This document shows, piece after piece, positions 53,011 through 56,564 of a stretch of DNA of 64,000 bases. Position 1 is the stretch's first letter; every line of letters starts with the position of its first letter. The notes beneath the pieces were generated by a model. That model was not told the DNA's origin. It made no database searches and saw nothing but the letters and a program-made list of their open reading frames with translations. The stretch spans positions 1-64,000 of the forward strand of contig CAINFC010000086.1 of NCBI GenBank assembly GCA_903847975.1. Direction: 5' to 3'. The position numbers were made by a program, and so were the translations under genes. This stretch comes from an uncultured Acidobacteriota bacterium. GTDB taxonomy: Bacteria > Acidobacteriota > UBA6911 > CAINFC01.

Positions 53011-55364
53011 CGATCAATATTTCCCCAGTCGATTCGGAAAAGTCGCTTTCCGCCACGGTACTGCCCACCCATGTGCCGATTCTGCCCATGCGCGGGACGG
53101 TGGTGTTCCCGGACGATATTGTCCCCCTGGCCATCGGGCGTGAAGCCAGTTTGCGGGTGATCGAGGCCACCCAGTCGGGAGAAAAGATCATCGGCATCGT
53201 CACCCAGAAAGATCCCAGCGTGAATGAACCCCAGCCGGACGACTTATACCGGGTGGGAACCCTGGTGCTGGTGGTCAAGTCGATCCGGCTGCCCGACGGC
53301 AGCTACCGATCCATTGTGCACGGCCTGATGCGCTTCCGAATTCTCGAATACCTGCACACCCAGCCTTACATGATGGCGGGAATCGAGCCCATCCCCCAGG
53401 ATGAATCCACCAGCGTGGCCATCGAAGCCCTGGTAGCCAATCTGCGCGGCCAGTTTCAGAAAGCTTCCGAGCTGGCACCCTATATCAACGAGGAATCCTC
53501 CACGCATGTGCTGAACATCGAGAGCCCGGGTCACTTTGCGGACGCCATGTCGTCGGTGATCAATCTGAAAACCGGCGACCGCCAAACCATCCTGGAGGGC
53601 TTCGATCTCAAGGAACGCCTGGAAAATCTGACTATTTTTCTGGCCAAGGAGATCCAGATCCTGGAGCTGAGCAGCAAAATTCAGAGCCAGGTGGCGGGGG
53701 AAATCAGCAAGAACCAGCGCGAATACTACCTTCGGGAGCAGCTGAAGGCCATCAAGCAGGAGCTGGGTGAAACGGATGACCGGGACTCGGAAATCCAGGA
53801 ACTGCGGGAAAAACTGCTGAAGCTGCCGCTGTCCGAAGACGTCCGGAAGGAAACCGCCCGCGAGCTGAAGCGCCTTTCCAAAATGAACCCCGACTCGGCG
53901 GAGCACACCGTGTCCCGTACTTACCTGGACTGGATCGTGGAGCTGCCCTGGGACAGCCGCACCGAAGACAACCTGGACCTGGCACAGGCCGCCCGGGTTC
54001 TCGACGAAGACCATTACGGGCTGGAAAAGGTAAAAAAGCGCATCATCGAATTCCTGGCAGTTCGTAAGCTGAAGGCCGACTCCCGCGGACCGATTCAGTG
54101 CCTGGTGGGACCACCCGGGGTCGGCAAAACCTCCCTGGGGAAAAGCATTGCCCGGGCCCTGGGACGCAAGTTCGTGCGCGTTTCCCTGGGTGGAATGCAC
54201 GACGAGGCGGAAATCCGGGGCCACCGCCGCACCTACATTGGCGCCCTGCCGGGAAAAATCATTCAGGAGCTGAAGAAATGCGGCTCCAAGAATCCGGTGT
54301 TCATGCTCGACGAAATCGACAAGCTCGGAAGGGATTTCCGCGGCGACCCCGCTTCCGCCTTGCTCGAGGTTCTCGACCCGGAGCAGAACCAGAACTTTAC
54401 AGACCACTACCTGAACGTCCCCTTTGACCTGTCGGAGGTGCTGTTTCTCTGCACGGCCAACGTGCTGGATCCCATTCTTCCTCCCCTGCGCGACCGCATG
54501 GAAACGATCGAAATTCCCGGATACACCGAGGAGGAAAAGATGGCCATCGCCCAGCGGCATCTGCTCCGCAAGCAGATCGAGGGGCACGGCCTGAAGGAGG
54601 ACCAGCTGCAGTTCCAGCGGGAAGCGCTGCAGGAAATGGTTCGCTCCTACACCCGGGAAGCCGGGGTTCGAAATCTGGAAAGGGAGATCGCCAAGATTTG
54701 TCGGGCTACGGCCAGCATGGTGGTTTCCGGGCAGGCGGAGAAAGTGGTCCTGGAGGCCGAAAATCTGCCGAAACTGCTGGGGGCGGCAAAATACTACTCG
54801 GAGGTGGCGGAACGGACCCTGACCACCGGAGTCGCCACGGGGCTGGCCTTTACGCCCTACGGCGGCGACATCCTTTTCGTGGAGGCCACGCAGATGAAGG
54901 GGCGCGGGCAGCTTACCCTGACCGGCCAGCTCGGCGATGTCATGAAGGAGTCGGCGCAGGCCGCGCTGAGCTACGTCCGTTCCAAGGCTGAGGAATTCCA
55001 GATTCCCAAGGATGTGTTCCGCAATACCGACATTCACATCCACGCTCCGGCCGGCGCCGTTCCCAAGGACGGCCCCTCCGCCGGGGTCACCCTTTTTACC
55101 GCCCTGCTTTCGCTGCTGAGCGGCCGGCGGGTTCGCAGCGAAATCGCCATGACGGGAGAAATCACCCTTCGGGGGCTGGTCCTCCCCGTCGGAGGGATCA
55201 AGGAAAAGGTACTGGCTGCCAGGCGCGCGGGAATCCGCGAGGTGATCCTGCCGGAAAGGAACCGTAGCGACGTCGAGGAGATCAAGGAAAAGGAAATCCA
55301 GGAATTAACGTTCCATTACGTCACCTGGATGCACGATATTCCCCCTCTCGCTTTTTTGAGTTAG
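53004..55364 (+). CDS. lon: ATP-dependent protease Lon
   Basis: 786 aa. LonN substrate domain (about 15-220, [17 protein letters not shown]), AAA+ module with Walker [14 protein letters not shown] and Walker [12 protein letters not shown], then the protease domain with catalytic Ser in [19 protein letters not shown] and Lys in [15 protein letters not shown]. It degrades misfolded and short-lived regulatory proteins. It is translationally coupled to clpB. Its stop is 5 bp from the convergent tRNA-Phe gene. Confidence 0.97.
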
Positions 55365-55369
55365 GGGAA

Positions 55370-55442
<73 letters not shown>

Positions 55443-55534
55443 ATACACGGGCTGGACGGAAAAGATTTATACCCTACCGCCTGGGTAATGACAAGTTTTT
55501 TTTTAATAAATTTTGCTTCCCTGGAAAGGACGGT

Positions 55535-55540
55535 TATAAT
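55535..55540 (+). promoter_or_regulatory. Perfect -10 box upstream of the small selenoprotein candidate
   Basis: TATAAT with a weak TTGCTT 16 bases upstream (55513-55518). If used, transcription starts near 55547, two bases before the ATG at 55549, giving a nearly leaderless message. Confidence 0.4.
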
Positions 55541-55548
55541 CGGAGCGT

Positions 55549-55719
55549 ATGAGCGAGGCAATTTTATTTTTAGGCATACTGGCAGCCTGGATTGCGCTGC
55601 AGCGATGGATCCTGCCGAGGTTCGGGATACCTACCTGAATGAGCCCTTCGTGCCCGGTGGATCCGCCGGGAAAGAAATCTTCCCCCTCCTCAACGGATGT
55701 TTCGAACCGGGAGAATTAA
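55549..55719 (+). CDS. Candidate selenocysteine-containing small membrane protein (TGA read as Sec)
   Basis: The frame ATG (55549) to TGA (55636-55638) encodes MSEAILFLGILAAWIALQRW and nine more residues ending GIPT: one transmembrane helix with a short basic exit. After the TGA the same frame runs 26 more codons, MSPSCPVDPPGKK..., to TAA at 55717-55719, one base before the ATG of the next gene. If the TGA is Sec, the product is 56 aa with a U-x-x-x-C pair just outside the membrane helix. A hairpin CCCGGTGGATCCGCCGGG (55653-55670) starts 14 bases after the TGA. Its apical loop GAUC lies 21 bases after the TGA and begins with G, as expected of a bacterial SECIS. A Cys or Sec redox role is inferred. 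Alternatively it is only a 29-aa peptide. Confidence 0.6.
55653..55670 (+). promoter_or_regulatory. SECIS-like RNA hairpin
   Basis: Seven-base-pair stem (five G-C/C-G pairs, one U-G and one G-C) closed by the loop GAUC. Below it a 3x3 internal loop and a further TTC/GAA stem (55647-55649 with 55674-55676) can form. The distance from the TGA to the loop fits the published window for bacterial SECIS elements (about 16-37 bases). Confidence 0.55.
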
Positions 55720-55720
55720 A

Positions 55721-55924
55721 ATGCCCCTTTATGAGTATCGGTGCCCCGACTGCGACCATCGCTTTGAAAAAATAAAATCGGTAAGTCAGGCCGACTTCCC
55801 GGAGGTCTGCCCCCGCTGCCAGAACGCCAAGGCAGAGAGAACCCTTTCGACATTTTCCGCCCGGGGTTCGGCCGGGCCCTCCTCTTCTTCCGGCTGCGGA
55901 CCCTCCTCCGGCGGCTTTTCCTGA
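55721..55924 (+). CDS. FmdB-family zinc-ribbon protein
   Basis: 67 aa. MPLYEYRCPDCDHRFEKIKS followed by PEVCPRCQNAKAERTLSTFSA is the FmdB/regulatory zinc-ribbon pattern with two CxxC knuckles; the tail is Ser/Gly-rich with one Cys (SSGCGPSSGGFS). Members are small putative regulatory proteins of unknown function. The ATG at 55721 has GGGAG nine bases upstream and sits one base after the read-through stop of the preceding frame, suggesting translational coupling. Confidence 0.9.
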   Translation: MPLYEYRCPDCDHRFEKIKSVSQADFPEVCPRCQNAKAERTLSTFSARGSAGPSSSSGCGPSSGGFS

Positions 55925-55940
55925 GCGCGCTAGGCTCTGC

Positions 55941-55959
55941 GGCGCCCGGTCCGGGCGCC
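55941..55959. terminator. Bidirectional hairpin between fmdB-like gene and folE
   Basis: Perfect GGCGCCCG-GTC-CGGGCGCC stem in the 34 bp between the convergent fmdB-like and folE stops. No T-run follows on either strand, so the assignment is tentative. Confidence 0.4.
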
Positions 55960-56564
55960 TACTTGATCAGGGAGCTCTGAATCAGGGTGAGGAACTCCAT
56001 GCGGGTTGCGGTGTGGGAGCGGAATCCCCCCAGCATGGCACTGGTGGTGGCCACCGAGTTGATCTTTTCCACCCCGCGCATGACCATGCACATGTGCCTG
56101 GCCTCCATCACCACCGCCACGCCCAGCGGGGAAATATTTTCCTCGATGGCATGCGCAATTTCGGAAGTGAGCCGTTCCTGAATCTGCAGTCGGCGGCTGT
56201 ACATTTCTACCAGCCGGGGAATCTTGCTCAGCCCGATGACCTTCCGGTTGGGCAGATAGGCGATGTGGCATTTGCCGAAAAAAGGGAGCAGGTGGTGCTC
56301 GCAAAGAGAGAAAAAGTCGATGTCCTTGATGATCACCATTTCATCGTGCGGGACCGTGTAAAGCGCATTGTTGAGGATCTTCTCCGCGCTCTGCCGGTAC
56401 CCGCGGGTCAGATAGCGCAGCGACTTGGCCACGCGCGCCGGCGTGTTTTGCAGCCCCTCGCGCAAGGGGTCTTCTCCCAGTTCGCCGAGCAGGGTGCCGA
56501 TGGCCTGGCGCAAGGCTTCCGAGCCCCGGTCGCCGTCGTGTCCTTCTTCCTTTTTTTCTTTCAT
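55959..56564 (-). CDS. folE: GTP cyclohydrolase I
   Basis: About 201 aa; converts GTP to dihydroneopterin triphosphate, the first step of folate/pterin synthesis. Conserved [22 protein letters not shown] and a later Cys in [10 protein letters not shown] give the zinc ligands (Cys-His-Cys); [23 protein letters not shown] is the substrate region. Of two close ATGs, 56564 is preferred because AAAGGA lies seven bases upstream; 56570 would add two residues. Confidence 0.96.

Follow-up and report, generated by a model that had tools for sequence, protein, structure and literature searches.

The gene at positions 55549-55719 (forward strand) of the window, i.e., of the whole 64,000-nucleotide stretch of an Acidobacteriota contig analysed here, is almost certainly a genuine selenoprotein gene, judging by sequence comparison, with its in-frame TGA decoded as selenocysteine (Sec). 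The TGA, the residues flanking it and a hairpin behind it are all kept in relatives, a pattern which lies far beyond chance. SelB together with tRNA-Sec would decode the TGA as selenocysteine, being directed by the hairpin just 3' of this codon. The earlier note had proposed a hidden selenoprotein at this place, and the proposal was borne out by the sel genes of the host genome, the relatives bearing the same TGA, the Cys orthologues and the SECIS hairpin.

The read-through frame and its hairpin

The frame opens with the ATG at 55549, runs through 29 codons to the TGA at 55636-55638 (forward strand, residue 30), which directly follows ...FGIPT, and continues for 26 codons to the TAA at 55717-55719. 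The 56-residue product, MSEAILFLGILAAWIALQRWILPRFGIPT-U-MSPSCPVDPPGKKSSPSSTDVSNREN, is assigned on the basis of the frame as read, the relatives with an in-frame TGA and the Cys orthologues. The TAA lies one base upstream of the ATG at 55721, which opens the next gene on the same strand (55721-55924); its product is an FmdB-family zinc ribbon protein (TIGR02605, E 2.3e-17; PF09723, E 6.3e-15 in a profile scan) containing Cys only, with no in-frame TGA. On the other side, a tRNA-Phe gene (gaa; 55369-55443, reverse strand) forms the upstream boundary. The frame, the position of the TGA after GIPT, the onward reading to the TAA just before the next ATG and both flanking genes had been described in this way previously, and the coordinates and profile matches agree with that description. 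The spacing of the redox-type pair had been misread as Sec-x3-Cys, the actual motif U-M-S-P-S-C being Sec-x4-Cys.

Immediately upstream of the gene (55534-55548) a perfect TATAAT precedes the ATG by about 10 bases, with GGAG in the gap, so the mRNA could begin with the start codon itself or just ahead of it; this box was left unscored by the promoter scan because it has no good -35 box.

The hairpin CCCGGTG-GATC-CGCCGGG (55653-55670, forward strand; stem 55653-55659 with 55664-55670, loop GATC at 55660-55663) comprises 7 bp, has G as the first base of the loop, and begins its loop 21 nt after the TGA; its energy as an isolated stem-loop is -12.1 kcal/mol. These properties, which had already been pointed out apart from the energy, fit the published bacterial SECIS model (spacing of 16-37 nt, a G among the first two loop bases, minimum free energy at or below -7.5 kcal/mol; PMC13188914). 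As an Rfam scan of positions 55300-56000 gave the tRNA as the sole credible match, the SECIS model, synonymous recoding and covariation served as the criteria for the hairpin, which proved to be both kept and covarying in the relatives.

In the recoding test, a hairpin was counted if its stem was perfect and 4 bp or longer, if a G stood among the first two loop bases, if it was located 16-37 nt after the TGA and if its energy was -6 kcal/mol or lower. By this definition 79% of 193 TGA-bearing members of the family possessed one, as compared with a mean of 21% in their synonymous recodings (maximum 29% in 20 rounds) and with one of the nine Cys forms. At the published threshold of -7.5 kcal/mol the corresponding values were 62% for the TGA members and 12% for the recodings. 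Most of the TGA members that failed the test have an imperfect hairpin at the same place. The loops are mostly GUC, GGUC, GGA and GUU, and their starts are concentrated 17-24 nt after the TGA.

Since the exact position of the hairpin varies by a few bases between members, so that a single register for all of them blurs the pairing, covariation was analysed in 50 members sharing one register (VESR-like members picked by their motif in the protein, after removal of a few rows whose register differed). In this set 92% of the cells were paired versus 74% after shuffling, changes on both sides of the stem numbered 72 versus 19.3, and the covariation score was 0.565 versus 0.218; none of 500 shuffles reached the observed values, and sliding by 1-3 columns left at most 40% of the cells paired. 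The same stem was independently predicted by RNAalifold. The subset is selective, having been chosen by motif and register, and the recoding test, which is non-selective, is thus the fairer of the two.

Relatives and the exchange of selenocysteine for cysteine

A search with the 56-residue read-through protein gave matches with this in-frame TGA in 11 further genomes of the host's class. The profile built from these same-class relatives matched in 89 of 396 sampled Acidobacteriota genomes and in 42 of 250 genomes of another class of this phylum, nearly always with one TGA. As for the remaining matches, G206 and G431 are Cys forms, those in G327 and G196 stop short of the TGA, which is present, and that in G299 is degenerate and was discounted. 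The set subsequently considered comprises at least 206 distinct members; 197 carry TGA at the site, and in 9 the codon is TGC or TGT. As the collection step accepted only Sec or Cys there, the unfiltered support for TGA usage comes from the profile searches of the 396 and 250 genomes. Over named genome contigs, a pattern accepting either TGA or a Cys codon matched at least 117 stretches, from which L135, L146, L173, L205, L221 and L227 were left out as apparent chance hits.

Among the matches listed, members belong to Acidobacteriota, Planctomycetota, Spirochaetota, Verrucomicrobiota, Melainabacteria/Cyanobacteriota, Armatimonadota, and Thermodesulfobacteriota with other 'Deltaproteobacteria', many of which are ranked as Myxococcota by NCBI. 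Actinomycetota, Gemmatimonadota, Zixibacteria, LCP-89, CSSED10-310, SAR324 and Rokubacteria are represented in that list by single records, which call for caution because the sources are metagenome bins. No plasmid copy of the gene was found in the search. One Acidobacteriota genome (G064) carries two divergent TGA copies on separate contigs, C8 and C24 (L118, L120).

The host genome (8.1 Mb, 99% complete) contains the full set of genes whose presence the earlier note had suggested checking, all over cut-off: tRNA-Sec, i.e., selC (77.1 bits), SelB (343.7), SelA (544) and SelD (357.7). A second TGA gene in this genome was sought via formate dehydrogenase, and nothing over cut-off was obtained. 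Across the family, SelA was detected in 41 of 43 TGA-form genomes (both exceptions carry SelB) and in neither of two Cys-form genomes, while SelB over cut-off was present in 14 of 15 TGA-form genomes versus one of nine Cys-form ones. When the machinery is considered as a whole, the ratio is 55/56 to 1/9 (Fisher p 1.6e-8, a value that is only indicative because related genomes are not independent). The TGA-form genome in which SelB did not pass the cut-off, G617, is possibly an incomplete bin. The SelB-positive Cys-form genome, DAHZZC (Planctomycetales), holds a Cys copy along with a Sec copy (L138 and L174, the latter with TGA). SelA was over cut-off also in 31 of 35 members of the phylum devoid of the selenoprotein gene; hence, having the machinery does not by itself mean that a genome has the gene.

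The tree, based on 50 columns, is poorly resolved and requires a minimum of six Sec/Cys changes; a single origin could still be accommodated. In one Cys form (L242/L267, from G431, a genome with neither SelA nor SelB) the Cys codon is followed by a SECIS-like hairpin of -12.6 kcal/mol, possibly a fossil SECIS left after a recent Sec-to-Cys conversion.

The simplest rival of Sec insertion is that the TGA is a real stop and that two short coupled ORFs of 29 and 26 codons, the second starting from the ATG at 55639, share a frame by chance. Such a reading agrees with the standard code and with the ATG that directly follows the TGA in this gene as in many relatives, and likewise with the weaker constraint on the tail than on the helix: in 43 near pairs pN/pS was 0.30 before the TGA and 0.69 after it, which implies no more than loose constraint on the end of the tail, though, as the hairpin also holds synonymous sites after the TGA, the true constraint on the tail is likely stronger, with its end still variable. 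The relatives, however, do not end at the TGA. They read on past it, with Cys at +5 in 78% and Met at +1 in 74% of the 206 members, so that both outcomes which had been named in advance as damaging to the proposal, orthologues terminating at the TGA and loss of conservation behind it, failed to appear. Moreover, about a quarter of the members lack a Met after the TGA, the motif continues from helix to tail uninterrupted, the hairpin covaries, and neither TAA nor TAG occurs at the site in the profile matches inspected. In nine orthologues with TGC or TGT the frame reads straight through with Cys in place of Sec, an outcome that the earlier note had named as decisive, and eight of their nine genomes have no SelB over cut-off. 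Two coupled ORFs were rejected on the strength of these Cys orthologues and the TGA-only usage, and we consider a real stop very improbable. Insertion of another amino acid, through an altered genetic code or unspecific read-through, has nothing specific in its favour; it conflicts with the complete sel set, with a hairpin fitting the SECIS model and with the way the Cys form tracks the absence of SelB. Reassignment of TGA was rejected likewise, given the sel genes and the fact that TGA still terminates other genes here, e.g., the adjoining FmdB gene, and the chance of this explanation being correct is minute.

Predicted membrane architecture, neighbouring genes and possible role

All 206 members follow one plan, a single hydrophobic helix and then a short tail with Sec/Cys. 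The conserved columns, numbered from the Sec/Cys site, are W or Y at -16, L-13, W-10, L-8, P-7, G-4, V/I-3, T-1, Sec/Cys, M+1, S/A+2 and C+5, with P-7, G-4 and T-1 each reaching 99% in the 206 members, values that partly reflect selection, because some of the positions served to collect the members. The same conserved columns emerged in a MAFFT alignment of the first 12 members, which had been found by similarity alone. For the window protein, AlphaFold2 predicted a helix at residues 2-24 (codons 55552-55620, forward strand) and a low-confidence tail, which, along with the hydrophobic columns present in all members, is consistent with the single transmembrane anchor and tail-borne Sec/Cys pair proposed earlier. 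Across the family the net charge averages -0.66 ahead of the helix and +1.97 behind it, so that according to the positive-inside rule the Sec-bearing tail probably faces the cytoplasm.

The first Cys after Sec is found at +5 in 153 of 195 members and at +6 in 11, and 17 have no later Cys, mostly those of a 'TUAVPxP'-like subtype. Seven loci of this kind (L110, L112, L113, L115, L116, L121 and L122) combine T-U-A-V-P-x-P and the lack of Cys at +5 with a G-C-rich hairpin, and the subtype may work by different chemistry.

The genes recurring near the selenoprotein gene, mostly on the same strand, encode rhodanese/YgaP-TM/CoA-disulfide-reductase-like proteins (35 loci), DUF302 proteins (21), RND efflux components (20), thioredoxin (15), ArsR regulators (13), universal stress proteins (11), TauE/SafE (11) and, more rarely, SQR-like oxidoreductases (6) and OsmC (4); these counts are probably lower bounds, because the genes were called with a home-made, composition-scored ORF caller and the flanks were often short. 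At least one of the rhodanese group, DUF302, thioredoxin, ArsR, TauE, SQR-like and OsmC genes occurs within two genes of the selenoprotein gene in 74 of 206 loci. DUF302 is present in 38 of 48 carrier genomes, at roughly one copy per genome; in 16 of the 48 no more than about 1 kb separates it from the selenoprotein gene, as against an expected number of about 0.05. FmdB-like genes stand no further than 1.5 kb away in 14 of the 206 loci, FmdB being a recurrent neighbour, though not the main one. Some carriers, including the window, have no sulfur genes nearby. In one lineage (L089-L091 and L105) SufS-like cysteine desulfurase, Rieske-like and YgaP-TM genes, the first two named by eye, are located upstream, a set that suggests sulfur mobilisation.

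The Sec-x4-Cys motif and the sulfur/thiol-redox neighbourhood point to a membrane-tethered selenol/thiol redox or sulfane-sulfur relay, a role to which we would give slightly less than an even chance. A protein of about 56 residues, with one membrane helix, Sec beside the membrane and Cys five residues further on, would present its selenol at the membrane surface, where it might attack a disulfide, a persulfide or similarly oxidised sulfur; the Cys at +5 would then resolve the intermediate to a selenenylsulfide, which a cytoplasmic reductant such as thioredoxin might reset. Such a relay would act beside partners of the rhodanese/YgaP, DUF302, SQR-like and TauE types. The carriers having no sulfur genes nearby and the members without Cys after Sec weigh against this role.

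The neighbourhood can also be read differently. A protein with a membrane selenol/thiol ligand pair could hand arsenic, mercury or copper ions over to efflux systems, which would account for the ArsR-type regulators and for the RND/MFP/TolC efflux genes at about 20 loci, the more so as several selenoproteins in the table of a recent review are metal-related (PMC13188914). The commonest neighbours, however, the rhodanese/YgaP-TM and DUF302 genes, and along with them thioredoxin, TauE, OsmC and SQR-like genes, suit sulfur/thiol chemistry better, and one subtype has no second ligand. ArsR-family regulators, for their part, sense sulfide and persulfides too. Metal or metalloid handling therefore seems unlikely to us. 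Small membrane proteins frequently regulate larger ones, and the tiny size, the lone helix with its conserved W and L faces, the short tail and the absence of a catalytic fold would also suit a non-catalytic subunit with an accessory or redox-sensing function in some larger membrane complex; as the neighbours vary too much among lineages for a single partner complex to be named, we rate this option as rather unlikely and retain the relay as the working proposal.

Relation to known selenoproteins

Apparently, the family is new; the best reading of the sequence comparisons is that it was previously undescribed as far as searchable databases and reviews show. The members tested, Cys forms included, gave no match over cut-off in NCBIfam release 20 (June 2026) or Pfam, and no significant match to the family was obtained in PHROGs or among PDB sequences. 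In the literature, with supplementary tables, subscription papers and RefSeq lying outside the search, no protein with the Sec-x4-Cys motif or this context was found. The new families reported by deep-Sep did not match the membrane selenoprotein either, and the deep-Sep authors state that their filtering may remove candidates for which there is no Cys homologue. The catalogues of bacterial selenoproteins grow family by family, mostly with known enzyme folds, and this widespread family was apparently missed, plausibly on account of its length of about 56 residues, its appearance as a 29-codon ORF in ordinary annotation and its few Cys relatives. That such a family was overlooked implies that small selenoproteins may be under-represented in catalogues and in genome annotations. 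The family's steady association with genes for rhodanese, DUF302, thioredoxin and TauE offers a testable entry into selenium-dependent membrane sulfur redox chemistry, and for the DUF302 proteins, which are uncharacterised, the adjacency gives a clue to function.

With bacterial selenoproteins as a class the family shares the in-frame TGA, the 3' SECIS hairpin, the genomic Sec machinery, the Cys homologues and the redox-type Sec/Cys pair. The review of May 2026 lists 119 bacterial selenoprotein families and subfamilies in its Table 1 (PMC13188914), none of which has the present sequence, the small single-helix build or a lone Sec-x4-Cys, and the single-pass membrane plan is unlike that of any bacterial family in the table. 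The only UxxxxU entry there, TsoB, is a rhodanese/DsbD fusion, a larger and different protein. An FmdB-family selenoprotein (TIGR02605, UxxU) is also among the families of this review, and an FmdB gene adjoins the window gene, with FmdB-like genes recurring near its relatives; the FmdB of the window, however, is a separate gene with Cys only, and the membrane selenoprotein has no TIGR02605 match. Also comparable are the small domainless selenoproteins of the same review, OS_HP3 (NF041197), the CC/Se motif (NF041239), KCU-star (NF033934), UXX-star (NF041114, NF041211) and TsoA (NF045695), which, together with the deep-Sep families DG, DW and DF, are likewise small or domainless, SECIS-driven and of unknown function, although the NCBIfam models of the five named from the review match none of the members tested.

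As regards chemistry, the nearest comparison is with the YgaP-type membrane rhodaneses and the CoA-disulfide reductases, which perform sulfane-sulfur or thiol redox reactions at the membrane or in the cytoplasm and are frequent same-strand neighbours; the selenoprotein differs from them in having neither a rhodanese domain nor a CxxC or CxxxxxR active site. As regards build, it recalls SELENOK and SELENOS (VIMP), single-pass membrane proteins with Sec in a flexible cytosolic tail, with a Cys-Sec bridge in SELENOS that thioredoxin can reduce. This resemblance is one of general plan only; the bacterial protein carries its Sec at the membrane rather than near the C-terminus, and its SECIS is of the bacterial type. 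Taken together, we tentatively regard these genes as encoding undescribed membrane micro-selenoproteins of a dozen or so phyla, which might serve as a selenol relay at the membrane surface in sulfane-sulfur/thiol homeostasis and thus be a functional counterpart of the SELENOK/SELENOS plan, a synthesis that we hold to be possible, at somewhat less than even chances.
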